Source: Agrobacterium vitis (GTDB lineage: Bacteria > Pseudomonadota > Alphaproteobacteria > Rhizobiales > Rhizobiaceae). Taken from it: 64,000 bases of DNA. A program made the translations under genes and the position numbers. The notes beneath the pieces were generated by a model that was given only the letters and a program-made list of their open reading frames with translations, made no database searches and was not told the DNA's origin. Below, one piece after another: positions 30,560 to 51,852 of the stretch. Each line of letters starts with the position of its first letter. Within the stretch, counting starts at the first letter, position 1. The stretch covers positions 3,303,001 through 3,367,000 of the forward strand of contig NZ_CP118259.1 in the NCBI RefSeq assembly GCF_013337045.2, written 5' to 3'.

Positions 30560-30649
30560 GGAGAGGTGGCTGAGTGGTCGAAAGCACCGCACTCGAAATG
30601 CGGCATACGGGCAACCGTATCGTGGGTTCGAATCCCACCCTCTCCGCCA
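30560..30649 (+). tRNA. tRNA-Ser(CGA), copy 1, left end of island 1
   Basis: The 90-nt sequence has a GGAGAGG/CCTCTCC acceptor stem, a D-arm with GGCTGAGTGG, anticodon loop CTCGAAA (anticodon CGA), a long variable arm (ATACGGGCAACCGTAT) typical of serine tRNAs, a T-arm GGGTTCGAATCCC and an encoded CCA. It reads UCG codons. Its 3' end is a usual integrase target, and island 1 begins here. Confidence 0.97.
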
Positions 30650-34479: not shown

Positions 34480-34511
34480 ACCTTGGCACCCCTCCAGGGG
34501 CGTCCTACGCA
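34473..34511 (+). repeat. Integrase leader repeat, copy B (with intact integrase)
   Basis: AAACCTTGGCACCCCTCCAG continues GGGCGTCCTACGCA; CCCCT/AGGGG can form a hairpin. It lies 29 nt before the integrase ATG. Confidence 0.75.
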
Positions 34512-34539
34512 AGATCTTCAACATCTATTGGAGATCACC

Positions 34540-35532
34540 ATGGCAACCATCCGGAAACTCAGAGGGCGCTGGCAAGCTCAGGTGCGTCGGCGCGGCATGA
34601 AGCCCCGCTGCAAAAGCTTCGACACCAAGTCCGAAGCTGAAAAGTGGGCGCGAGAGCTTGAGGCTCAGGTTGATCGCTTCGGTGCCGCACCCGACACCCG
34701 TATTCTTGAAAGCACGACGCTGGGCGAGCTTCTGGAGCGCTACCAGCGCGAAATCTCGCCAACGAAGCGGGGATCAGTCCAAGAGATCCAGCGGATCGAT
34801 GTGCTGCGGCGTCACGAGCTTTCTTACCGGACTATGATTGGCCTCAGCCAACAAGATATTGCCGCGTTCCGCGATGAGCGCCTTCGAAGCGTAGCACCAT
34901 CTACAACGGTGCGGGAGCTGGCAATCTTGAGCCACGTCCTCGAAGTTGCAATTCGTGACTGGGGTCTACCGCTGGCAAAGAACGTGGTGAAGCTGGTGCG
35001 CCGTCCCGTCATCCGCAATGAGCGCAGCAGACGGCTGACGGGCACCGAGGAGCAACGGCTTCTGGACGGTTGCGATGGTGGACAGCTTCCTTACTTCAAG
35101 ACGCTGTTGATTGTCGCCCTGGAGACAGGGATGCGTCGTGGCGAGATTCTTGGGCTGCAATGGAGCGATATCTCGCACAATCGCCGGGTGATTTCGCTGG
35201 CTCTGACGAAAAACGGCTCCAGTCGTGAGGTGCCACTATCACAGCGTGCTTTCGACGCACTGACAGATTGGAAGTCTCGCGCCGATGTGGAGCAGGCTGT
35301 GGTATTTCCTATGACGGCCGGAGCCTTGGAGCAGGCCTGGCGCAGGCTGCTGATCCGGACTGGCATCACCGGACTGCGATTTCACGATTTGCGTCACGAA
35401 GGCGTCAGCCGTCTGTTTGAGAGAGGGTTGAACGTGATTGAAGTTTCAACTATTAGTGGTCACAGAGAACTACGTATGTTGCGACGATACTCGCATCTCA
35501 ACGCCGAGGATCTGGTAGCTCGGCTTGGCTAG
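34540..35532 (+). CDS. Tyrosine-type site-specific integrase
   Basis: The 330-residue integrase is complete. The N-terminal arm-binding part begins MATIRKLRGRWQAQVRRRG, a SAM-like core-binding domain follows, and the catalytic domain has Arg in ETGMRRGEI, Lys in TKNGSSREVPL, HxxR in FHDLRHEG, His in SGHRELR and Tyr in RRYSHLN. All six catalytic positions are present, so it could be active. TTGGAGATCACC gives the ribosome site before the ATG at 34540. It is the best candidate for moving island 1 at tRNA-Ser. Two broken relatives lie at 52748 and 54500. Confidence 0.95.
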   Translation: MATIRKLRGRWQAQVRRRGMKPRCKSFDTKSEAEKWARELEAQVDRFGAAPDTRILESTTLGELLERYQREISPTKRGSVQEIQRIDVLRRHELSYRTMIGLSQQDIAAFRDERLRSVAPSTTVRELAILSHVLEVAIRDWGLPLAKNVVKLVRRPVIRNERSRRLTGTEEQRLLDGCDGGQLPYFKTLLIVALETGMRRGEILGLQWSDISHNRRVISLALTKNGSSREVPLSQRAFDALTDWKSRADVEQAVVFPMTAGALEQAWRRLLIRTGITGLRFHDLRHEGVSRLFERGLNVIEVSTISGHRELRMLRRYSHLNAEDLVARLG

Positions 35533-39115: not shown

Positions 39116-39318
39116 ACGCTCCTCGCTGAACGTCGAGCCGATACATGACCGACAGAGCGAAAGGGAACCTTTGTCCGATAGACGTTGCGTATAAACGCAG
39201 ACCGGATCGCCTCCAGTGATTTCAGTGACTTCCGGATTTGCTCCATTTTAACCCCGACAGAGCGAAATCGTTCCATTATGTCAATGGCTTGGTTGCGTTA
39301 TGGAAGGTTCATCTTATC

Positions 39319-39897
39319 ATGAAACTAATCGGATACGCTCGCGTCTCGACGGTCGAGCAGAACCTCGATTTGCAGGTTTCAGCACTGCAGATAGCAGGGT
39401 GCTCAGAAATTTTCACCGATCAGGGGCTTTCCGGTGCAGACTTTCAACGACCGGGCCTGAGGAAAGCACTGCGAAATTTAAAAGATGCTGATATGCTTGT
39501 CGTCTGGAGGCTTGATCGGCTCGGACGCTCCTTGATAGATCTCATCGAGACTGTAGATCGGCTTGCAAAGCGGGGTTGCGAGTTTCGATCACTGACCGAA
39601 AATATTGATACCTCATCATCGGGCGGGCGGTTGGTTTTTCATATGATGGCAGCGATGGCCGAATTTGAGAGGGCAATCATTAGCGAGCGCACCAAAGCTG
39701 GAATGGAAGCTGCCAGAGCTCGAGGTTCTCGCTTAGGACGCCGCCCTTCCATGACCGACGCTCAGACATGTGCTGCTCGGCATGCCATCGAAATAGATCA
39801 ACGGCCAATTTCTGAGGTGGCCGCAAAATACAACATTCATCCCAAAACGTTGGCTCGTATTCTGCGGACGTCCGGAATGTCTTACACAAGCAGCTAA
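39319..39897 (+). CDS. Serine recombinase (resolvase/invertase family)
   Basis: The 192-residue recombinase starts MKLIGYARVSTVEQNLDLQ, with nucleophile Ser10 in RVS. VVWRLDRLGRSLIDLI holds the catalytic arginines, ERAIISERTKAGMEAARARG is the long E helix, and GRRPSMTDAQTCAARHAIEI with NIHPKTLARILRTS is the C-terminal HTH. It is complete and of normal length for a Pin/Tn3-type small serine recombinase. It could resolve or invert part of the island; no recombination-site pair was confirmed by eye. Confidence 0.93.
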   Translation: MKLIGYARVSTVEQNLDLQVSALQIAGCSEIFTDQGLSGADFQRPGLRKALRNLKDADMLVVWRLDRLGRSLIDLIETVDRLAKRGCEFRSLTENIDTSSSGGRLVFHMMAAMAEFERAIISERTKAGMEAARARGSRLGRRPSMTDAQTCAARHAIEIDQRPISEVAAKYNIHPKTLARILRTSGMSYTSS

Positions 39898-40546: not shown

Positions 40547-43500
40547 ATGGACAACTTAACTTCAGCAGAAATTCAATTGCCTACCCCGCTCATTGAAGCG
40601 GTGCGCAACCGCCGCGCCATACCATTTCTTGGCGCAGGTTCGTCGAAGGAGGCTCGAAACAGTGCCGATGCAACTCCCCCTGATGCCGACCAGCTTCGTG
40701 ATATTTTGGCAGAGCGGTTTTTCGGGAAAGCAATGAAAAATCGCGACGTCATGGCGGTTGCAGAGATGGCAATTCAAACCGTGGGTGGACAGTCTCAGGT
40801 TTTCGAACAGGTAAGGCAGGCACTGGATAGCTTTGAGCCGGGCAAAGCTCATGATTTGATGACCGAATTTAGTTGGAGGATGATTGCGACCACGAATTAT
40901 GATCTGATCGTCGAGAGGGCTTACGGTAGGGCAGCTAATTCTCGGCAAAAACTTGTCCGATTCGTTAAGGACGATGAACCAGTCGAGGAAAAGCTTCAAT
41001 CTGTCGTAAATGGGGTTCTATATGCAAAACTCCATGGCTGCCTCGATCATATTCACGACACAGATATACCACTTGTTTTGTCGCGGGAACAATTCGCCGC
41101 ATATAGCAAAAATAGAGCAAGATTGTTTGGACGCCTTCGAGACAAAGCGCGTGAATCAACGCTTATATTTGTTGGATATAGGCTAGATGACGCCCATATT
41201 CGCTCGCTAATATATGATCTTTCGTCCGATAAGCGCCCGCGCTGGTATATTGTTACGCCCGACGCGGAGGATTACGATATTGATTTTTGGGCCTCGCAAA
41301 ACGTAGGCGTAATCAAAAGCCGTTTCGGTGATTTCATGGCCGCATTAGACAGGGCAATTCCGCCATTACAGCGCGCCTTGTCACCAACAAACGATGTGGC
41401 GGACCTTCCCATAAGGAAGTTCTACACAAGTCCGTCCAGAGAGTCGGCTGGTTTGCTCGCGGCATTGGAGAAAGATATCACCTTCTTGCACGCAGGTATC
41501 GCCGTGCAGGTTCAAGATCCTAAGAAATTCTATGAGGGATATGATACCGGATGGGCCGCTATCACCCGTCGTCTGGACGTTAGGCGCAAGGTAGAGGACG
41601 ATCTACTTTATAAGGCCGTCCTTGAGAACGAGAAGCCTTCCGGCCCAGTGTTGCTTATGTTGCGCGGGGCAGCCGGAGCCGGCAAGACGATCGCACTAAA
41701 ACGTTCGGCTTACGAGGCAGCGACAGCTTCAAACGTCCTAGTGCTTTGGCACGAAGAAGATGGTGCCCTCCATCCCGAAGTATTTGTAGAGCTATATGAG
41801 CTCTCGAAGGCACCTATTTACCTTTTTGTTGATCAGGTGGCATTGAACGTAGACAAGGTCCATCACCTGCTAAAGGTGATGGCATCGCGATCTGTGCCAC
41901 TCTTAATTGTTGGTGCTGAACGGGACTCTGACTGGAACACTTATTGTTCGTCGCTGGAGTCTGATTTCAGTCCACAGTTCATTCGAGTAGGAAATTTGTC
42001 TCGCGCTGAAGTGGAAGGACTTCTCGATCTTCTTGAACGCCACAGTTGTTTGGGGGCCCTGGCAAGGTTAGGAAGGCACGAGCAAATTGAGGCATTCATG
42101 GAGAAGGAGCGTGCAGACAGGCAACTTCTCGTCGCGCTACACGAATTGACACAAGGAAAGCCGTTTGAAGAAATAATCTTAAATGAACATCAACGGATTC
42201 ACCCTCCACAAGCACGTCAACTTTATCTCGACATTGCAACCATGCACCAATTCGCGGTCAAAGTTCGAGCTGGCACAATATCCCGGATATCCGGCATTGA
42301 ATTCGACGACTACGAAAGGCACTTTTTCTCCCCTCTACAAGATATCGTTAAAGTTGTGGAAGGCAGCTACACGCAAGATCACTATTATCAAACTAGACAC
42401 GCGCGAGTAGCTGCAATTGTTTTTCGGCAAGTTTGCCCAGACGATTCTACTAAGTCAGCGCAGTTCAATCGACTAATCAATGGACTCGATGTCGGTTATG
42501 AGACTGACAGACATGCCCTTATTGAAATAACAAGAGGGCGCCATCTTTCTGAAACTTTCGTGGGCGTCTCCGAGGCCAGAAAAATCTATCAGGCCGCCGT
42601 TGATGCAGCCCCAACGCTTGCATTCCTATATCACCAATGGGCTGTTTTTGAGCTCAATCATAAGCACGGTTCACTCAATGAAGCCGAGCGGCTTTCGGCG
42701 ATTGCGAGAGAAATGGACCCAAAGAGCAAGTCGATCATACATACACAAGCTGAAACCGATCGAAAACGGGCCTGCCACGAGTCATCTCCAATACTAAAAG
42801 ATTCCCTCCGCAAGCGTGCGCGTGTTCGCCTCAATGAAATGCCAATCCACGATAGGTTCGCGGCCTCCAGCAGGTGCAAACTGCTCGTTGATGAATTGGA
42901 GGAGCTAAATGCAGCTTTAGGGGATGACCCAAAGCAGCATGAAGCCTTATTTTTCGCTGAAAAGGTCAAAGACACTGAAACTGCGCTTTTGCGTGCTCAA
43001 CAAGCGTTTCCCGATGACGCAGACATGATTCAAATCGAGGCACGCTTCAGGGAGGAAATTGACCAGGAAGATCGCGCGTTACGTGCGCTCGAACGCGCGT
43101 GGTTGGCTGGCACAAGAGGTTCTGGCACCGCTATACGAATTGCAAAAATGTATGATACCCGGAACCGGCCCGGTGATGCCATTAAGGTGTTAAAGGAGGC
43201 TCTAGCACGTAATCCTGATGAGAAGACGGCGCACAATGCCTTAGCCTTTCACTACCTTGCCCAAGAACCATATGACGGTGCCCTAGTTGAGAGCCATCTG
43301 AGGCTAAGTTTCTCACTGGCAGACCAAAACTTTGAAAATCGATATAATTTGGCTCAATTTCTTTTCATGGAAAATAAAGTCTCCGATGCTGTCACACTTT
43401 TTGCAACAATAGACCAAATGGCCCCGGACGGGTTTCGTCGACATGCGCCTGCCACAGACAATGCGATTACTGCCATGTTAGGCAGATATATGGGTGTAGT

Positions 43501-43690
43501 AGAAGAAGTTAGAGATCGCTTTATTCTCATTCGCACCCCGAATTACCCGAAGAAAATATTCAGCCATCGGCTAGCGTCTGATCCCGACGTGTTTGACGAG
43601 CTGAGTGTCGGAAGCCAAATCAACTTTCGACTGCGTTTTAATAGAGAAGGTCCGGTTGCTGTTGAAATAAAGACGGGACGGTTGCGATAG
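40547..43690 (+). CDS. SIR2-STAND-TPR protein with C-terminal cold-shock-like domain
   Basis: A 1,047-residue defence-type protein. Residues 24-270 form a SIR2 domain: PFLGAGSS (26-33), TTNYD (115-119), KLHG (161-164), FVGYRLDDAHI (208-218), the NAD site kept. A P-loop NTPase follows with Walker A GAAGAGKT (374-381) and Walker B YLFVDQ, as in STAND ATPases. From about 690 to 960 there are TPR-like helical repeats. The last 65 residues (MGVVEEVRDRFILI, KIFSH, ELSVGSQINFRL) follow the strand pattern of a cold-shock/S1 OB fold. SIR2-STAND proteins (Avs5-like) deplete NAD on sensing phage; the OB tail is the odd part. A strong terminator follows. Confidence 0.88.
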   Translation: MDNLTSAEIQLPTPLIEAVRNRRAIPFLGAGSSKEARNSADATPPDADQLRDILAERFFGKAMKNRDVMAVAEMAIQTVGGQSQVFEQVRQALDSFEPGKAHDLMTEFSWRMIATTNYDLIVERAYGRAANSRQKLVRFVKDDEPVEEKLQSVVNGVLYAKLHGCLDHIHDTDIPLVLSREQFAAYSKNRARLFGRLRDKARESTLIFVGYRLDDAHIRSLIYDLSSDKRPRWYIVTPDAEDYDIDFWASQNVGVIKSRFGDFMAALDRAIPPLQRALSPTNDVADLPIRKFYTSPSRESAGLLAALEKDITFLHAGIAVQVQDPKKFYEGYDTGWAAITRRLDVRRKVEDDLLYKAVLENEKPSGPVLLMLRGAAGAGKTIALKRSAYEAATASNVLVLWHEEDGALHPEVFVELYELSKAPIYLFVDQVALNVDKVHHLLKVMASRSVPLLIVGAERDSDWNTYCSSLESDFSPQFIRVGNLSRAEVEGLLDLLERHSCLGALARLGRHEQIEAFMEKERADRQLLVALHELTQGKPFEEIILNEHQRIHPPQARQLYLDIATMHQFAVKVRAGTISRISGIEFDDYERHFFSPLQDIVKVVEGSYTQDHYYQTRHARVAAIVFRQVCPDDSTKSAQFNRLINGLDVGYETDRHALIEITRGRHLSETFVGVSEARKIYQAAVDAAPTLAFLYHQWAVFELNHKHGSLNEAERLSAIAREMDPKSKSIIHTQAETDRKRACHESSPILKDSLRKRARVRLNEMPIHDRFAASSRCKLLVDELEELNAALGDDPKQHEALFFAEKVKDTETALLRAQQAFPDDADMIQIEARFREEIDQEDRALRALERAWLAGTRGSGTAIRIAKMYDTRNRPGDAIKVLKEALARNPDEKTAHNALAFHYLAQEPYDGALVESHLRLSFSLADQNFENRYNLAQFLFMENKVSDAVTLFATIDQMAPDGFRRHAPATDNAITAMLGRYMGVVEEVRDRFILIRTPNYPKKIFSHRLASDPDVFDELSVGSQINFRLRFNREGPVAVEIKTGRLR

Positions 43691-45132: not shown

Positions 45133-45222
45133 GGAGAGGTGGCTGAGTGGTCGAAAGCACCGCACTCGAAATGCGGCATACGGGCAACCGTATCGTGGGT
45201 TCGAATCCCACCCTCTCCGCCA
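45133..45222 (+). tRNA. tRNA-Ser(CGA), copy 2, between islands 1 and 2
   Basis: The 90 nt are identical to copy 1 at 30560-30649, including the long variable arm and encoded CCA. About 60 bp upstream are also related, including the promoter. A partial third copy of the 3' end is at 55233-55252, so this gene is the left attachment side of island 2. Confidence 0.97.
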
Positions 45223-45332: not shown

Positions 45333-46940
45333 TTAACGTGCCGCCCTTACGTCTTCGAACTTGAGGCCAAATCGGGCTAGGTATTTGATGAGGCGATCGG
45401 CGTCGTTACTGCTCTTCTTTTCCAATCGCGACTGTGCGAACAAAACCCTGCCCGCGGAGCTTGAGGTTGCATGTTCCCTGCAGATGCGGATAACGGCAGA
45501 GAGCTGGATGGCGTCGAAGCGGTCAAGGCGCGCGGCGACGTCGAAGCCCAATAGTTCTTCGAGTAGTGTATCGGCTTCGTGGCGGTCGGACGATGAGCGC
45601 CAAAAGTTATTCAATCTCTGGATCTCATCGTCGACGACATCTGTTGTAATGCGTCCATGAGGTGCCAAGGTCGCCATGCGGGTGATAGAGGCGGAGAGGT
45701 CGCGGAAGTTTGCACTCCAGATGCCTTGCGGGCCGGTCGCAAAGGCAAGGTATCGGTCGCGGGCTTCCTTGTTGAACGTGACGTTTTCGCCCTCCCGCTC
45801 CAGAAAACGTCTGAGTTCGAATTCGAGATTGGGTTCGATATCCTCCTTGCGGTCTCGCAGGGCCGGAAGCTGGAAAGTCCAGAGATTGAGCCGGGCATAG
45901 AGATCTTCGCGGAACCTCCCTTTGCGGACATCTTCGCCGAGGTCGCGATTGGTGCCGGCAAGCAGTTGAAAGTCTGCCGATGTCTCTCGGTCAGACCCTA
46001 CGGGCAAAAATCGCTTTTCCTCGATCGCGCGTAAGCACATCGCCTGTTCGTCAGGGCCGAGTTCGCCAATTTCGTCCAGGAAGAGCACGCCTTTGTCAGC
46101 CGATTTAAGCAAGCCGGCACGCTCACCCGCAGCGCCGGTGAATGCACCCTTCACGTGGCCAAACAGGGTGGACATGGCCTGATCGCCGCGCAGGGTGGCA
46201 CAATTGACTTCTATGAACAGGCCAACAAGCTTGCGCTGGTTTTTCTTGAGCTCATAAATCCTGCGGGCGAGCTGGGATTTTCCGGCCCCTGTCGGACCGG
46301 TCAGGAGAACGGGCGCCGTCGAGCGGATGACTACTCTCTCGATTTCGTCGATCATTCGGTTGAACGCCGCGTTGCGGGTCGAAATGCCTGATTTCAAAAA
46401 GGATGCCGCGTCTTCTCGCTCCGAGGCAAAACGCTTGGCGATCTCATCGTAGCGGGAGAGGTCAAGGTCGATAATCCTGTGCGTGCCAGCAAAATCCTGT
46501 GTCAGTTCCCGGTCGCGTGGTGGCGAAAGTTGCAGCAAGCGACCCGGAATAATCCGGGCCTCGGTCAACAGGAACCAGCAGATCTGCGCAACGTGTGTGC
46601 CCGTGGTAATGTTAACAAGATAATCCTCAGTATCCGGGTCGAAGGCATAATTGCGGGCAAAATCTCGCAGATGCGTATAGACCTCGGAAAAGTCCCAAGG
46701 ATCCTTGAAATTGATCAGATTGCTGCGCACCTCGGTCGCCGGAGACACGATTGCGATATCACTGGTGACCCGGCTGGCCAGTGCGCTCGCATGATTATCG
46801 TGAATGAGCTCTAGTCGATCGATGAACAGTCCACTCTGTTGGCAAAGCCCGACATTAGGCCGCCACCGCGTCCAGCGATTCTCCCATTTTCCTGCATCAA
46901 GGGTAGTTCCCAAAATACTAAGAGCCACTCGACGCTTCAT
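45333..46940 (-). CDS. rtcR: RNA-repair transcriptional activator RtcR
   Basis: The 535-residue protein is the sigma-54 activator of RNA-repair operons. Residues 1-180 are the RtcR sensor, a CARF-type domain (VALSILGTTLDAGKWENRW, VNITTGTHVAQICWFLL). The AAA+ domain has GPTGAGKSQ (Walker A), KGAFTGA (sigma-54 contact loop) and GVLFLDEIGELGPDEQ (Walker B). The C-terminal part should bind DNA. In the family, RNA-end signals such as 2',3'-cyclic phosphate ligands relieve the sensor. It is divergent from rsr across 210 bp holding a -24/-12 promoter. Confidence 0.95.
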   Translation of the reverse strand: MKRRVALSILGTTLDAGKWENRWTRWRPNVGLCQQSGLFIDRLELIHDNHASALASRVTSDIAIVSPATEVRSNLINFKDPWDFSEVYTHLRDFARNYAFDPDTEDYLVNITTGTHVAQICWFLLTEARIIPGRLLQLSPPRDRELTQDFAGTHRIIDLDLSRYDEIAKRFASEREDAASFLKSGISTRNAAFNRMIDEIERVVIRSTAPVLLTGPTGAGKSQLARRIYELKKNQRKLVGLFIEVNCATLRGDQAMSTLFGHVKGAFTGAAGERAGLLKSADKGVLFLDEIGELGPDEQAMCLRAIEEKRFLPVGSDRETSADFQLLAGTNRDLGEDVRKGRFREDLYARLNLWTFQLPALRDRKEDIEPNLEFELRRFLEREGENVTFNKEARDRYLAFATGPQGIWSANFRDLSASITRMATLAPHGRITTDVVDDEIQRLNNFWRSSSDRHEADTLLEELLGFDVAARLDRFDAIQLSAVIRICREHATSSSAGRVLFAQSRLEKKSSNDADRLIKYLARFGLKFEDVRAAR

Positions 46941-47099: not shown

Positions 47100-47115
47100 T
47101 GGCACGCCTCTTGAA
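47100..47115 (+). promoter_or_regulatory. Sigma-54 promoter of the rsr-Y RNA-rtcB operon
   Basis: TGGCACGCCTCTTGAA matches the -24/-12 consensus (TGGCAC-N5-TTGCA) except that the final GC reads GA. It is 36 bp before the rsr start and divergent from its activator gene rtcR. Confidence 0.75.
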
Positions 47116-47150: not shown

Positions 47151-48704
47151 ATGGTCAACAAGGCGATCTTCAAAACCTATCTCGGAAAACTGCTTCCGTT
47201 CGCAGAGACGACAAACCATGAAGGTGCTCCGGCTTATCGACTGACGCCGCGCGAGGCGTTGGCACAGTATGCCGTAACCGGCACTTTCAATGGGACATTC
47301 TACGCGGATGGTGCCGAGCAGTTGGAAGCGGTGAAGACGCTGGCGCTTCAGGTCGAGCCGGAGTTTCTGGCCAAGGTAGCGATTCATGCCGCAGAGAGTG
47401 GCCACATGAAAGACATGCCGGTGACCTTGCTGGCGGTGCTTTCCGGCCTTCAGAGTGAGGCCTTTGCACGGGCATTTCCGCGCGTGGTCCGGAGTGGCAA
47501 GATGCTGCGCGGATTCGTCCAGGTGATGCGCTCAGGCGCGACAGGACGCAAGTCACTGGGCACGCGGCCGAAGAAGCTGGTGCAGGCATGGCTGGAACGG
47601 GCGAGCACGGAGCAGATCCTACGGGCGATGGTCGGCAACGACCCCTCGCTTGCCGACGTGATCCGCATGGTGCACCCGAAGCCTGCCTCGGAAGAAAAAA
47701 AAGCGCTCTATGCATGGGTGATCGGCAAGCCGCACGACTATGCGGCGCTACCGGAACTCGTCAAGGCGCTGCACGCCTTCCGGCAGGACCAGACGTTGCC
47801 GATACCGGATGTGCCGTTCCAAATGCTGACCTCACTGCCGCTGACACGGGAGCATTGGGTCGAGATCGCCGAAAAAGGCAGCTGGCAGATGGTGCGTCAG
47901 AACCTTAACACTTTTGCCCGCAAGGGCGTGTTTGAGGTCGAGGGCGTCGCGATGATGCTGGCTGCGCGGCTTGCCGATCCAGATGAGATCCGAAATGCCA
48001 AGGTCTTCCCCTATCAGTTGATGATGACGTGGAAGATGGTTGGCGGCCAGGTTCCGGACGTGGTGCACGATGCCTTGCAGGATGCGATGGATATTGCGAT
48101 CGCCAATGTGCCGTCGTTGCCCGGCAATGTCGTGCTCTGCCCCGACGTTTCCGGCTCCATGGGTTCTCCCGTGACCGGTTACCGCAAGGGCGCAACGTCC
48201 GCAGTGCGCTGCATTGACGTGGCAGGCCTGATGACGGCGGCGTTTCTGCGGCGGAACCCGAAGGCGCGCGTGCTACCGTTCGAGAAAGACGTGGTCGACG
48301 TTAAGCTCAACCGCCAGGATTCGGTGATGACGAATGCTGGCAAGCTGGCAGCGGTCGGTGGCGGCGGAACAAACTGCTCCGCGCCGTTGAGGAAGCTCGC
48401 AGACGACAAGGCCAAGGTTGATCTCGTCGTGTTCATCTCGGACAACCAATCCTGGGTGGATGCGCGCGGCAGCGGTCAGCCAACCGCTGTGATGACGGAA
48501 TGGGCGAGGATCAAGCGGGTCAACCCGGCTGCAAAGCTGGTCTGCCTCGACATCCAGCCCCACGCCACCTCGCAGGCACCAACACGCGACGACGTGCTCA
48601 ATATCGGCGGCTTCTCGGACGCCGTTTATGGAGTAATCTCCGAGTTCGCTGCCAATAAAAGGGCAGACGGCTGGGTGAAAACCATCGAGGCGATTGAGCT
48701 CTGA
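47151..48704 (+). CDS. rsr: Ro60-family RNA-binding protein Rsr (TROVE + vWA)
   Basis: The 517-residue protein is a bacterial Ro60 orthologue. Residues 1 to about 310 form the TROVE ring of HEAT-like repeats that takes RNA 3' ends in its centre and Y RNA on its outer face. The vWA domain then begins with VVLCPDVSGSMGSP, a good MIDAS DxSxS motif, with GGGGTNCSAPL as the second MIDAS loop. Rsr with Y RNA can tether polynucleotide phosphorylase or sequester misfolded RNA. It is the first gene of the sigma-54-controlled operon and is followed by the Y RNA array. Confidence 0.95.
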   Translation: MVNKAIFKTYLGKLLPFAETTNHEGAPAYRLTPREALAQYAVTGTFNGTFYADGAEQLEAVKTLALQVEPEFLAKVAIHAAESGHMKDMPVTLLAVLSGLQSEAFARAFPRVVRSGKMLRGFVQVMRSGATGRKSLGTRPKKLVQAWLERASTEQILRAMVGNDPSLADVIRMVHPKPASEEKKALYAWVIGKPHDYAALPELVKALHAFRQDQTLPIPDVPFQMLTSLPLTREHWVEIAEKGSWQMVRQNLNTFARKGVFEVEGVAMMLAARLADPDEIRNAKVFPYQLMMTWKMVGGQVPDVVHDALQDAMDIAIANVPSLPGNVVLCPDVSGSMGSPVTGYRKGATSAVRCIDVAGLMTAAFLRRNPKARVLPFEKDVVDVKLNRQDSVMTNAGKLAAVGGGGTNCSAPLRKLADDKAKVDLVVFISDNQSWVDARGSGQPTAVMTEWARIKRVNPAAKLVCLDIQPHATSQAPTRDDVLNIGGFSDAVYGVISEFAANKRADGWVKTIEAIEL

Positions 48705-48719
48705 CGTAGAGGCAATACC

Positions 48720-48744
48720 CCCGCGCCGCCGTGAACGGCGCGGG
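48720..48744 (+). other. GC-rich hairpin between rsr and the Y RNA array
   Basis: CCCGCGCCG and CGGCGCGGG pair around CCGTGAA, with no T run. It ends two bases before the first Y RNA stem, so a processing site or 3' barrier for rsr mRNA is more likely than full termination. Confidence 0.6.
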
Positions 48745-48746
48745 AA

Positions 48747-48880
48747 CCGTGACGAATGCCGGATGAAACTACAGGCTGTTAACCTCCAGGTCGCGGGTTC
48801 GAATCCCGCCGGGTTCTCGATTTTCTGAACCCGTAGCTCAGCGGATAGAGCAGGACGTTTCTCCAACCTCGTCGTCACGG
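48747..48880 (+). ncRNA. Y-RNA-like (YrlA) gene 1 with permuted tRNA module
   Basis: The ends CCGTGACGA and TCGTCACGG pair perfectly (9 bp). Inside, in order, are GCGAATG-like and GAAACTACAGG words, a T-arm GCGGGTTCGAATCCCGC, an acceptor-like stem CGGGTTC / GAACCCG closed by a TCGATTTTCT loop, and a D-arm TAGCTCAGCGGATAGAGCA. The order T-arm, acceptor, D-arm is a circularly permuted tRNA whose anticodon side is replaced by the long Y stem. This agrees with the known tRNA mimicry of bacterial YrlA RNAs. It is the clearest copy for tRNA similarity. Confidence 0.85.
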
Positions 48881-48888
48881 ATGAATAA

Positions 48889-48994
48889 CATGGCGAATGC
48901 AAAGGAAACTACATAGCCGCGGCAGGTTCAAACCCTGCAAGGGATGTCACACTCCCATTCTGGTAGCGGAGTTTCCTTGTCACTGGTCGCCATG
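48889..48994 (+). ncRNA. Y-RNA-like gene 2
   Basis: The closing stem is CATGGCGA / TCGCCATG (8 bp perfect). GCGAATGCAAAGGAAACTAC follows the 5' arm. The T-arm is GCAGGTTCAAACCCTGC, the short acceptor-like stem is GGGA / TCCC, and TGGTAGCGGAG takes the D-arm place. The 3' arm is preceded by CTTGTCACTGG, similar to the Ro-binding strand of Y RNAs. It starts 8 nt after copy 1 ends. Confidence 0.78.
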
Positions 48995-49008
48995 ACAAAG
49001 AAGCAGAA

Positions 49009-49108
49009 GGCCGGAAACGAAACTGGTGCTCCGCAAATGGAGTTGTGGGTTCGAAGCCTGCCCCGTCGTCGCCTGCCATTGTGTAGGACCGGCGGGAAGT
49101 GTCCGGTC
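49009..49108 (+). ncRNA. Y-RNA-like gene 3 (divergent)
   Basis: A weaker copy. GGCCGGA pairs with TCCGGTC (7 bp, one G-T). GTGGGTTCGAAGCCTGC is a T-arm with wobble pairs, and CCCG / CGGG may form the acceptor-like stem. The GCGAATG word is missing, although GAAACT is present. It may be a decaying or specialised copy. Confidence 0.5.
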
Positions 49109-49123
49109 TATTGCCATAACTAG

Positions 49124-49262
49124 ATTTGCAGCGGCGAATGCCGGACGGAACTACAGCCTCCACACTTGGATGGTCTGGCAAGGTTCGACTCCTTCCCTTG
49201 GCGGCGCTCTCTGGCACGAGCGGGGCCATCCGGTTTCGTCCACCCTTGTCGCCGCTGCAAAT
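49124..49262 (+). ncRNA. Y-RNA-like gene 4
   Basis: The ends ATTTGCAGCGGCGA and TCGCCGCTGCAAAT pair perfectly over 14 bp, the longest closing stem of the array. GCGAATGCCGGACGGAACTA follows the 5' arm, a T-arm AAGGTTCGACTCCTT lies in the middle, and CACCCTTG precedes the 3' arm. The D-arm is less tRNA-like than in copies 1 and 5. Confidence 0.8.
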
Positions 49263-49268
49263 AATACT

Positions 49269-49401
49269 CGGCGAATGCCGGCAGGACTACAGGTAGAGCA
49301 CACCAACGGCTTGCGTTGGGGAGGTCGGATGTTCAAGCCATCCCGCATTTCCAAAATGGAATGCGTAGCTCAGTTCACTGTCTTGCCTTACCTCGTCGCC
49401 G
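49269..49401 (+). ncRNA. Y-RNA-like gene 5, abutting rtcB
   Basis: CGGCGA pairs with TCGCCG (6 bp). GCGAATGCCGGCAGGACTAC follows the 5' arm. The T-arm is GGATGTTCAAGCCATCC, the acceptor-like stem is GCATTTC / GGAATGC closed by CAAAAT, and GTAGCTCAGTTCACTG is the D-arm, so the same permuted order as in copy 1 is seen. It ends 7 nt before the rtcB ATG, so folding of this RNA may hide or expose the rtcB ribosome site. Confidence 0.8.
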
Positions 49402-49408
49402 GGGCCTG

Positions 49409-50875
49409 ATGAAAGACCTGACGAAACGAAGAAGGACTGCAATCGCAGAAAAGAAGATGATCGAGATATTGAGCGGGCAGGATTTGATCGATGCGGGGAT
49501 GAGCCAGGGCAAGTGGTTTCGCCCGGCACTCGACGCCGCCAACAAGAGATTGAGCGAGGGCGGTTCTGTCGCGGATGCTCTGGAAGCGGCAAAAGCCTTT
49601 CAGCCGGGGCCGACGCTTGCCTTGCGGACAGACAATGATATCGAGATCTATTGCAACATCCGCGCCGAGAACGCCTTCGAGCAGGATAATATCGAGAAGG
49701 TCAACGCGACCATGCGGGCGCTGGTGCGCACGCCGGTGGTTCGTTCCGCCGCGATCATGCCAGATGCCTGCCCCGCGGGGCCGATCGGGACGATCCCGGT
49801 CGGCGGGGTGGTGGCGTCTGAAGCGATCCATCCCGGCATGCATTCGGCCGATATCTGCTGCTCGATGGCGATCTCGATTTTTCCGGGCATCGATCCGAAA
49901 TCACTTCTTGATGCCGTCCATGCGGTAACGCATTTCGGTCCCGGCGGGCGTCCGCATGACGCGCAGATCAAGCCGTCCGAGGCAACGCTTTCCGCCTTCC
50001 AGCAGAATCCCTATCTGCGGGAAGGTCCGCTTAAAGCTGCCGTCGAACATTTTGGGACGCAGGGGGATGGCAATCACTTTGCCTATGTCGGCACGATGAA
50101 ATCAACCGGCGAGACCGCACTGGTGACTCACCATGGATCGCGAGCACCGGGCGCGCGGCTTTACGACAAAGGCATGGTGGTTGCCAACAAATTCCGGGAA
50201 CTTCTCTCGCCGGAAACGCATCGCGAGAATGCCTGGATTCCGGCGGAGACCGAGGAGGGCGAGTTCTACTGGTCCGCGCTTCAGATCATTCGCCAGTGGA
50301 CGAAGGAAAACCATTATGTGCTGCACGACATGGCCGCAGAAAGGCTCTCCGCCAAGGTGGCCGATCGCTTCTGGAACGAGCATAACTTCATCTTCCGCAA
50401 GTCGGATGGGCTATTCTACCACGGCAAGGGCGCGACACCAGCCTTCGACAATTGGGCAGCGGACGCGACCGATCTGACCATCATTCCGCTCAATATGGCA
50501 GAACCGGTGCTGATCGTTCGTGGCTCGAATGCCGCGCATGGCCTCGGCTTTTCACCGCATGGCGCGGGGCGTAATGTCTCGCGCAGCGCACATATGCGCC
50601 AGCTGGCTGCTGAATACGGAGCGGATTCGCGTGGCCTTAGTCCGAACAACATCGCTGCGGTCCTCGAAAAGGAAACGAACGGTCTCGATGCGCGGTTCTT
50701 CTCAGGTTTTGCCGACGTGTCGGAGTTGCCGAGCGCCTACAAAAGCGCTGCAAAGGTGCGGGCGCAGATCGAGCATTACGGCCTGGTCGAAGTGGTCGAC
50801 GAGGTGATGCCGTTCGGCAGCATCATGGCCGGAGACTGGCAGAGGGACGCGCCTTGGCGCAAGAAACGACGCTAA
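49409..50875 (+). CDS. rtcB: RtcB-family RNA ligase
   Basis: RtcB joins RNA 2',3'-cyclic phosphate or 3'-phosphate ends to 5'-OH ends using GTP and manganese. The 488-residue protein has metal ligands in HSADICCSM and GTQGDGNHFAY, HHGSRAPG, and the guanylylated histidine in FSPHGAGRNVSRSAH. MPDACPAGPIGTIPVGG replaces the usual DxHxGxG stretch, so it belongs to a side branch of the family. The start at 49409 has GGGG close by; 49458 is an alternative. It is the last intact gene of the operon; no rtcA cyclase is present in the window. Confidence 0.93.
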   Translation: MKDLTKRRRTAIAEKKMIEILSGQDLIDAGMSQGKWFRPALDAANKRLSEGGSVADALEAAKAFQPGPTLALRTDNDIEIYCNIRAENAFEQDNIEKVNATMRALVRTPVVRSAAIMPDACPAGPIGTIPVGGVVASEAIHPGMHSADICCSMAISIFPGIDPKSLLDAVHAVTHFGPGGRPHDAQIKPSEATLSAFQQNPYLREGPLKAAVEHFGTQGDGNHFAYVGTMKSTGETALVTHHGSRAPGARLYDKGMVVANKFRELLSPETHRENAWIPAETEEGEFYWSALQIIRQWTKENHYVLHDMAAERLSAKVADRFWNEHNFIFRKSDGLFYHGKGATPAFDNWAADATDLTIIPLNMAEPVLIVRGSNAAHGLGFSPHGAGRNVSRSAHMRQLAAEYGADSRGLSPNNIAAVLEKETNGLDARFFSGFADVSELPSAYKSAAKVRAQIEHYGLVEVVDEVMPFGSIMAGDWQRDAPWRKKRR

Positions 50876-50928: not shown

Positions 50929-51852
50929 TCAATTCAGCGCGAGCTTTTTCTCTATTGCTTCCCTCAGCATATCGATGACTTCAGGACCCAGATTTGCAGG
51001 CATGTCGAGGCGCCGGCTCGTCTTATAGAAATCCGCCGCTTGATGACCGAGGTTGACGGCCATAACCGAAAGGCGCTCATCGGACTCAAGACCTAATATT
51101 ACCTGTTGAAGATGTTGCGTCAGAAAATCGGCACCGTTTGCCGCGAACGTCGAGTCATCCATCGGAACTCCATCAGACAGGACGAGCAGAAATTTATGGC
51201 GCTCTGGTGCACGAAGCAGGCGTTCGCTTGCCCATTGAAGAGCTTCACCATCGATATTCTCTTTGAGAAGATCCGGGCGAAGCATGTTCTTCAGCCGATG
51301 CCCGAGTGATGAAACGCGCATGTCATCGGCTGAGCGATAAATAATATTGAGCAGATCGCAAAGACGACCCGGTCTCCGGGGCGATCCAGCATTCTGCCAA
51401 CGCTTGCGGGAATTTCCACCCTTCCAGCTGGCAATCGTATACCCGAGAACCTCCACCTTGCATCCGAGATTTCGAAGAAAGTCCTGAGCTGCATCTGCGG
51501 CGGCGGCGGCCATCAAAATCGACTGGCCCCGCATCGATCCGGAATGATCGATAAGAAGCGAGACAACGATATCTTCTCGGCGGCACGTCGGCAGATGGGC
51601 CGCGAGGTGTGATCCCATCCTTATGCCCGCTATTGTCCATTCTGCTCGCAATGCTGTCAAAGACAGCTCGAAGGTCTGCTAGGCGTGATCGAGAATCGCG
51701 GCATCGTCCTGAGCAAGAGGCCCCAGGACTTGATCGAGGTCTTCGCTCTTTACGATGTGATCGAAATCGGTGGTGAATGCGTGGTAGTCCTTCTTGTCGA
51801 TCAACATCGGATTGATCGCTCGGCGAGCAAAGATCTTCTCGAAAAAACTCAT
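50929..51852 (-). pseudogene. Broken CobT-like vWA protein
   Basis: Read on the minus strand from 51852, MSFFEKIFARRAINPM leads to YHAFTTDFDHIVKSEDLDQV, the FTTEFDEVV region of CobT-family proteins. An in-frame TAG ends it at about 51679. The same frame continues from 51660 with a vWA domain (SLLIDHSGSMRGQS, RPGRLCDLLNIIYRSADD, LLKENIDGEALQWA, LVLSDGVPMDDST). The N-terminal 400 or so residues of CobT are missing, as is most of the helical part between. The vWA half could still be made from a TTG at 51660. It is a remnant, or an unusual short vWA protein. Confidence 0.7.

Follow-up and report, generated by a model that had tools for sequence, protein, structure and literature searches.

A window of 64,000 nucleotides of Agrobacterium vitis DNA, meaning the whole stretch that was analyzed, carries between rsr and rtcB an array of five folded RNA units (48747-49403), of which the fifth, judged by its order of elements, is a circular permutation of a tRNA body that differs from the first. 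Unit 1 is opened at the anticodon in the manner of the bacterial Y RNA YrlA, and in unit 5 the Y RNA stem enters the D-loop instead (Table 1). That the units belong to a known kind, the bacterial Y RNAs, is well supported by their structure. The D-loop-opened head type departs from the YrlA order of elements and looks like a new variant of bacterial Y RNA; no report of such heads was found in a literature search, which did not reach the 2014 bacterial Y RNA survey of Chen and colleagues.

Table 1. Features of the Y RNA locus, in positions of the window.
Feature	Position	Strand	Basis
rtcR, sigma-54 activator with RtcR domain, divergent from rsr	45333..46940	-	Pfam PF06956 (1.7e-78); PF00158
Sigma-54-like -24/-12 site TGGCACGCCTCTTGAA, 5′ of rsr	47100..47115	+	Pattern, at most one mismatch
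rsr, Ro60-type protein	47151..48704	+	Pfam vWA_Ro60 PF25045 (1.6e-19); homologues annotated 60 kDa SS-A/Ro ribonucleoprotein
Y RNA unit 1 of class A, with T-arm, closed acceptor and D-arm in the order of an anticodon-opened tRNA	48747..48880	+	YrlA match, 9-bp ends, fold centroid, class A grammar
Y RNA unit 2, class A but worn, with T-arm, acceptor hairpin of 4 bp and D-arm not clear	48889..48994	+	YrlA match, 8-bp ends, fold
Unit 3 (class F), whose end stem lacks the GAATGC/ACTACA words; small hairpin CTCC-GCAAAT-GGAG, T-arm and an acceptor-like stem of 7 bp	49009..49108	+	8 related sequences, fold
Y RNA unit 4 (class E), T-arm plus a hairpin GCTC-TCTGGCAC-GAGC resembling a D-arm, acceptor stem absent	49124..49262	+	14-bp ends, 17 related sequences
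Y RNA unit 5 (class D), D-loop-opened tRNA	49267..49403	+	Model R1, covariation, fold with GAGC/GCTC-closed junction
Unit 5, G18 G19 U A21 and D-stem 3′ strand GAGC	49292..49299	+	tRNA-numbered grammar
Unit 5, anticodon-like arm, loop shortened	49301..49321	+	Helix 4: two-sided changes in 8/8 pairs
Unit 5, variable loop AGGTC (44-48) and T-arm	49322..49343	+	tRNA numbering
Unit 5, acceptor stem CGCATTT/GAATGCG with 8-nt closing loop	49344..49365	+	Helix 6: two-sided changes in 6/7 pairs, 80.9% of cells paired (MAFFT alignment)
Unit 5, U8 A9, D-stem 5′ strand GCTC, A14 G15	49366..49373	+	tRNA numbering
rtcB RNA ligase	49409..50875	+	Pfam RtcB PF01139 (9.7e-28); in-frame ATGs 49409 and 49457

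The window lies in a genome of 6.08 Mb, and among 120 matches listed of 8000 its Rsr is 96% identical to Agrobacterium vitis Rsr and 92% identical to that of Allorhizobium taibaishanense. With a divergent rtcR, a sigma-54 site and rtcB, the locus has the composition of an RtcR-type RNA repair operon; no rtcA was found among the seven window proteins scanned with Pfam. The gap between rsr and the first in-frame rtcB ATG is 705 bases long and holds all five folded units. This setting recurs in related rsr loci, with a sigma-54-like site 5′ of rsr in 79 of 82 loci as compared to 1.8% of shuffled upstreams (at most one mismatch) and a divergent RtcR in 80 of the 82 loci with enough upstream DNA, and a downstream RtcB of more than 45% identity was present in only 66 of 84. 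Next to the operon, a convergent gene 3′ of rtcB (50929-51660) has a Pfam match to the CobT_C vWA domain. On the other side, two copies of tRNA-Ser(CGA) in the same direction (30560-30649 and 45133-45222) flank ∼14.5 kb adjoining the rtcR operon, and this bracketed stretch is possibly an inserted element. It contains an integrase-like (34483-35532) and a resolvase-like (39238-39897) open reading frame, both judged by eye only, and a large protein (40547-43690) with Pfam matches to SIR2-like, nSTAND NTPase and TPR domains, a make-up known from anti-phage proteins.

An earlier reading made from the sequence only had described five consecutive units with complementary ends between rsr and rtcB, and this description holds. 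The lengths that it gave for the end stems are right for units 1 (9 bp), 2 (8 bp) and 4 (14 bp), but the end stem of unit 3 spans 10 positions with one mismatch rather than 7 bp, and that of unit 5 is 8 bp rather than 6. Likewise, of two words said to be shared by four units, ACTACA is present in units 1, 2, 4 and 5, but GCGAATGC is found only in units 2, 4 and 5, with ACGAATGC in its place in unit 1. The basal module common to these four units consists of the end stem and GAATGC ... ACTACA ... TTGTCG-like words, and an end stem with such words adjoining the rsr/Ro60 gene is what broadly characterizes a bacterial Y RNA; unit 3 has the paired end stem but neither basal word. A T-arm is common to all head classes, and D-arm elements occur in classes A, D and E. 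An acceptor-like stem followed by a D-arm had been assigned to units 1, 2 and 5, of which only unit 1 has it; the full YrlA order is worn in unit 2 and absent from units 3, 4 and 5. Folding of the region, which had been proposed as a check, agreed with the description, each unit folding better than most of 200 dinucleotide shuffles (z of -2.73, -3.23, -2.37, -4.31 and -3.17 for units 1 to 5, with 3, 0, 3, 0 and 1 shuffles folding as well). A covariance search, also proposed, succeeded in part: the Rfam YrlA model (RF02553) matched unit 1 at 59.4 bits (E 9.4e-12), unit 2 at 39.3 (6e-6), unit 5 at 25.3 (0.069) and unit 4 at 19.5 (3.1), with no window unit reaching the gathering cut-off of 69 bits and no match to unit 3. 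The same model was used to look for further Y RNAs elsewhere in the genome, and none were accepted; of seven matches at E≤10, three were units 1, 2 and 5, and four lie on or beside tRNA genes, which shows how tRNA words by themselves may be misleading. As a separate observation, the array (48740-49410) matches 50 plasmid records, 43 of them from Rhizobium, and among the 12 listed, two cover 99% of the query and ten cover 79-84%, perhaps because unit 3 is absent there.

In unit 5, ACTACA is followed directly by GGTAGAGC, and GTAGCTCAG comes after the acceptor-like hairpin, where the sequence-only reading had placed a D-arm hairpin. No such hairpin exists. Instead, GTAGCTCAG holds the 5′ half of the D-stem, which pairs back to the GAGC of GGTAGAGC, ahead of the anticodon-like arm, and this difference in the opening point had been missed. 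In tRNA numbering, the first half of the head runs G18 G19 U A21, D-stem 3′ strand, base 26, a stem-loop at the place of the anticodon arm and AGGTC (44-48), and the second half runs T-arm, acceptor 3′ strand, closing loop, acceptor 5′ strand, U8 A9, D-stem 5′ strand and A14 G15. From this order it follows that the Y stem enters the D-loop between positions 15 and 18, before G18-G19, and the head retains the remainder of the tRNA, lacking only the free acceptor end and an anticodon loop of regular form. Folded on its own, unit 5 has as its minimum-energy structure a junction closed by the D-stem, with the anticodon-like and acceptor arms formed and the T-arm distorted.

A grammar written in tRNA numbering found 52 D-loop-opened heads in 43 of the 84 related loci, and its sister grammar found 91 anticodon-opened heads in 74 of them; a first version, with 34 matches including a few false ones, was superseded by this second one. 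On 20 dinucleotide shuffles of all 84 gaps (75,192 bases) there was one match per head type in total, and neither the reverse strand nor rsr coding sequence (126,000 bases) gave any match. The D grammar requires GG, A21 and A14 and adds one score point each for U8 and a purine at 15, so the presence of the latter two in 52 of 52 heads is partly selected. Features neither required nor scored include C48 opposite G15 (the Levitt pair) in 52 of 52, a purine at 26 in 51 and AGGTC in 45. The anticodon-like arm can be closed to a loop of 3-6 nt in all 52 heads (4 nt in 40), sizes that represent maximal closing and allow a wider loop in individual heads, and the acceptor closing loops measure 3-10 nt. 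Strands also pair better within a locus than between loci. In the acceptor, 6.67 of 7 positions pair with their own partner as compared to 4.28 with the partner from another locus, and the corresponding values are 5.67 and 3.90 for six positions of the anticodon-like arm, 4 and 3.59 for the D-stem and 5 and 4.78 for the T-stem. Because the D- and T-stems vary little, support for the D-stem comes from few changes, namely one of its four pairs plus a further exchange, GAAC/GTTC, in the folds of three Labrys units.

Covariation was measured on 36 of the 46 non-redundant class D units, ten having been omitted, mostly for a long variable arm. In this alignment 94.6% of cells are paired as compared to 78.5% in shuffles, two-sided changes affect 28 of 40 pairs and occur in all six helices, and none of 500 shuffles reached any of five measures. 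Sliding the partners left 38-54% paired, a control that favors structures which, like this one, derive from a member of the sequence set. The end stem is paired in 100% of cells and the second stem in 98.3%, which means that homologues keep the paired ends whose loss had been named as grounds for rejecting the proposal of Y RNAs with permuted tRNA-like modules; structure and covariation together support that proposal strongly.

Covariance model R1, which has unit 5 as one of its training sequences and scores it at 124.9 bits (E 2.6e-30), gave 84 matches of at least 73.6 bits in 59 of the 84 loci, a number that includes the 36 training sequences and was counted by score, not by inspection one by one. 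The next score is 64.4 bits, and long-variable-arm units, atypical units and, from 57.1 bits down, class A units follow. Counts of D-type heads vary with the method: the motif gives 81 in 54 loci, the grammar 52 in 43 and the model 84 in 59; a first unit classifier was crude, calling the 81 strict-motif D heads 70 D, 7 A, 2 none, 1 E and 1 T. Heads that resemble tRNA-Leu, with a long variable arm and the D-loop opening, occur at several loci and, by eye, at one locus outside the bacterial class; when three long-variable-arm heads were folded singly, the D-stem formed in L069 and was absent in L161 and L061. In 19 genomes picked for an Rsr-type match, all 33 R1 matches with an E-value no higher than 1e-7 map to the rsr locus, and six of the genomes had none. 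Across the class, R1 at E≤0.01 has matches in 204 of 289 genomes. Besides the genome of the window, one of these (G240) has a strong match (93.6 bits) and one (G387) a possible match (62.3 bits), and the other listed matches reach at most 48.4 bits and are partly tRNA-like, so weak R1 matches alone mean nothing.

The heads of units 3 and 4 are of other kinds. In unit 4, the T-arm with TTCGACT is followed by ∼10 bases at the place of the acceptor and then by the D-arm-like hairpin. An alignment of 17 class E sequences, out of 22 collected rows from which four that were not class E and one that was mis-oriented were omitted, has 92.8% of cells paired and two-sided changes in 10 of 30 pairs; in the outer head stem the paired fraction is 82.2%, and the number of pair types was reached by 113 of 500 shuffles. 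Class F, the type of unit 3, was recognized by inspection in 8 of 84 loci, and its 8 sequences have 93.8% of cells paired and 6 of 26 pairs with two-sided changes; 7 of 500 shuffles did as well. L030 has retained the basal words in its class F unit, which suggests that they were lost from unit 3 of the window and makes Rsr binding by unit 3 doubtful. A small hairpin in unit 3 (49028-49041) has GCAAATG in its loop, or GCGAATG in most of the 8 relatives, which is close to the lost basal word GCGAATGC and may be chance. Decay of some members of the set is conceivable, given the worn head of unit 2 and the missing acceptor of unit 4.

The 84 loci comprise 79 of 80 named rsr loci, four further loci from the family and the window; of 89 parsed loci, L009-L012 and L014 were omitted as duplicates of L023, L037, L043, L044 and L061, L055 was not parsed since its rsr lies at a contig end, and related species remain among the rest. 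They contain 376 parsed units, with one unit in 2 loci, two in 3, three in 21, four in 13, five in 25, six in 12 and seven in 8, and these counts are mostly lower bounds because the parser misses some units. The size of the array had been thought unusual, but it is ordinary for the group, 3-7 parsed units being present in 79 of 84 loci. Three rsr loci from the same phylum but another class have 5, 4 and 4 units, counted by eye from motif and grammar matches. The Rfam YrlA model at its cut-off finds few units at such loci, with 6 matches, all in class A units, as compared to 64 parsed units in 12 loci. The head types also keep an order: class A stands first in 65 of the 67 loci that have it together with another class, and class E precedes class D in 44 of 44 (L013 and L015 were omitted from this count). 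Arrays in viruses were looked for and rejected, as only five of 37 viral rsr loci (contigs L171-L207) have a basal-motif unit in the fetched DNA, one each; in L171, L176 and L184 a D-grammar match without the basal motif is presumed to mark a tRNA cluster.

The possibility that the heads copy one tRNA species was also discarded. Against 28 distinct tRNA sequences (30 fetched of 47 tRNA matches, plus the window), the best head identity averages 0.80 for class D and 0.86 for class A, the latter slightly above the 0.82 found between a tRNA and its best match of another anticodon. The nearest tRNA is Arg(CCG) for 41 and Thr(TGT) for 29 of 91 class A heads, and Pro(CGG) for 14, Met for 14 and Lys for 13 of 52 class D heads, and no clear isotype emerged among the 28 sequences compared. 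Two other kinds of unit were seen in passing. Very short Y-like units with the basal module, a second stem and hardly any head lie at L050:6725-6838, L051:6730-6832, L052:6723-6811, L053:6779-6880 and L054:6722-6827, and another recurring head that is not obviously tRNA-like, with words like CGGACTCATCGTTATCCGGAGC, lies at L082:7407-7517, L085:6612-6721, L087:6687-6800, L088:6627-6741 and L097:7585-7704.

According to PMC8394870, the basal stem of YrlA tethers Rsr, and the head of YrlA is a binding partner of PNPase and a substrate for modification by TruB and DusA. Salmonella RtcR responds to damaged tRNA and switches on rsr-yrlBA-rtcBA, according to PMC7790460 and PMC9879122, the latter describing two Y RNAs in the operon. 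The window shares with this system the rsr and rtcB neighbors, the divergent RtcR, sigma-54 control, paired ends with GAATGC/ACTACA/TTGTCG-like words and, in unit 1, the head order. It differs in having five units instead of two (yrlB and yrlA), all below the Rfam gathering score, and in a D-loop-opened unit 5, a unit 4 without acceptor and a unit 3 without basal words. The Deinococcus Y RNA of the Rsr-PNPase machine RYPER, compared by role and not by sequence, is alike in being proposed in the literature as a tether between Rsr and another enzyme.

We give roughly even credence to the following reading of the locus: a co-directional Y RNA array under sigma-54/RtcR-type control would supply Rsr-tethered tRNA mimics that present different faces to tRNA-handling proteins. 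The array, its structures, the order of head types and the operon context can be read off the DNA itself; beyond them, the units would presumably be processed into separate RNAs, and the basal module of units 1, 2, 4 and 5 would hold Rsr, by analogy with YrlA. The heads would then be tRNA mimics of several makes, anticodon-opened in units 1 and 2, D-loop-opened between G15 and G18 in unit 5, and reduced to T- and D-like arms in unit 4. Under this proposal, tRNA damage would activate RtcR, and expression of the operon would yield Rsr and RtcB together with several handles tethered to Rsr. The handles would differ in the face that they offer to tRNA-gripping proteins, since the point at which the Y stem departs from the tRNA body is not the same throughout; PNPase, RtcB and tRNA-modifying enzymes are candidates for such proteins, which may be brought to the Rsr ring with damaged RNA, the heads acting as putative adaptors. 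Several adaptors for Rsr had been one idea of the sequence-only reading, and the array would fit it. What the complete heads appear to keep is the tRNA body. With the acceptor closed by a loop and the anticodon loop removed or replaced, they should neither decode nor be charged. tmRNA, by comparison, is charged and has an open acceptor end, whereas the acceptor is closed in the window heads. The two are alike in that the tRNA-like domain of tmRNA is a partial tRNA mimic, as stated in PMC8394870.

Duplicate units might instead raise the amount of Y RNA, with differences between heads being drift. Copy number differs between loci, and units 2 and 3 of the window are worn, as such redundancy would have it, but the head types hold their order and compensatory changes occur in each of classes D, E and F, if most weakly in F, and we consider this explanation unlikely. 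A role as decoys, in which the array would lure tRNA-attacking nucleases or toxins during the damage response and spare real tRNA, seems rather improbable to us. The sequence-only reading had suggested tRNA decoys, the heads do resemble tRNA in an operon of a type switched on by damaged tRNA, and a lure had already been raised as a possibility for YrlA in PMC7790460. According to the same paper, however, Salmonella YrlA is not cut by the nuclease, a result that is also compatible with an inhibitor that escapes cutting. The heads have a closed acceptor end and no regular anticodon loop, the Y stem standing in its place in class A and the loop being closable to a few nucleotides in class D, and these losses argue against a part in decoding or charging as well as against luring anticodon nucleases. 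Such a lure is therefore disfavored, and decoys aimed at enzymes that recognize tRNA elsewhere are possible.

In the circularly permuted tRNA genes of algae and archaea, the tRNA halves are swapped, with the opening in the D-loop or the anticodon loop. The permuted order of halves and an RtcB encoded next door could suggest that the units are genes of this sort, processed with RtcB as ligase to working linear tRNAs as in some algae and archaea. The heads differ, though, in sitting on a Y RNA stem with the acceptor closed, and the loops of the 52 class D heads, 3-6 nt in the anticodon-like arm when maximally closed and 3-10 nt in the acceptor, do not match a regular 7-nt anticodon loop and processable acceptor ends; they leave little room for a CCA end and leader, and ARAGORN calls no tRNA in the array, which makes this explanation highly improbable. 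Chance folding or stray tRNA pseudogenes, which the weak YrlA-like matches beside tRNA genes might bring to mind, are scarcely credible in view of the shuffle, strand and coding controls, the covariation and the confinement of R1 matches to rsr loci in the 19 genomes.

The array bears on the question of what bacterial Y RNAs use tRNA mimicry for. It offers a natural set in which a tRNA body is attached at no fewer than two points and the anticodon loop and free acceptor are dropped, which narrows down what is imitated, and its heads are ready-made variants for binding tests. Tentatively, and with somewhat less than even confidence, we propose that a second, possibly undescribed route from tRNA to Y RNA, with insertion in the D-loop, no anticodon loop, a closed acceptor and a stem that leaves at the elbow, would together with the anticodon-opened and reduced heads give Rsr a kit of tRNA faces, which may place tRNA-handling enzymes in different attitudes around its ring during RNA repair.
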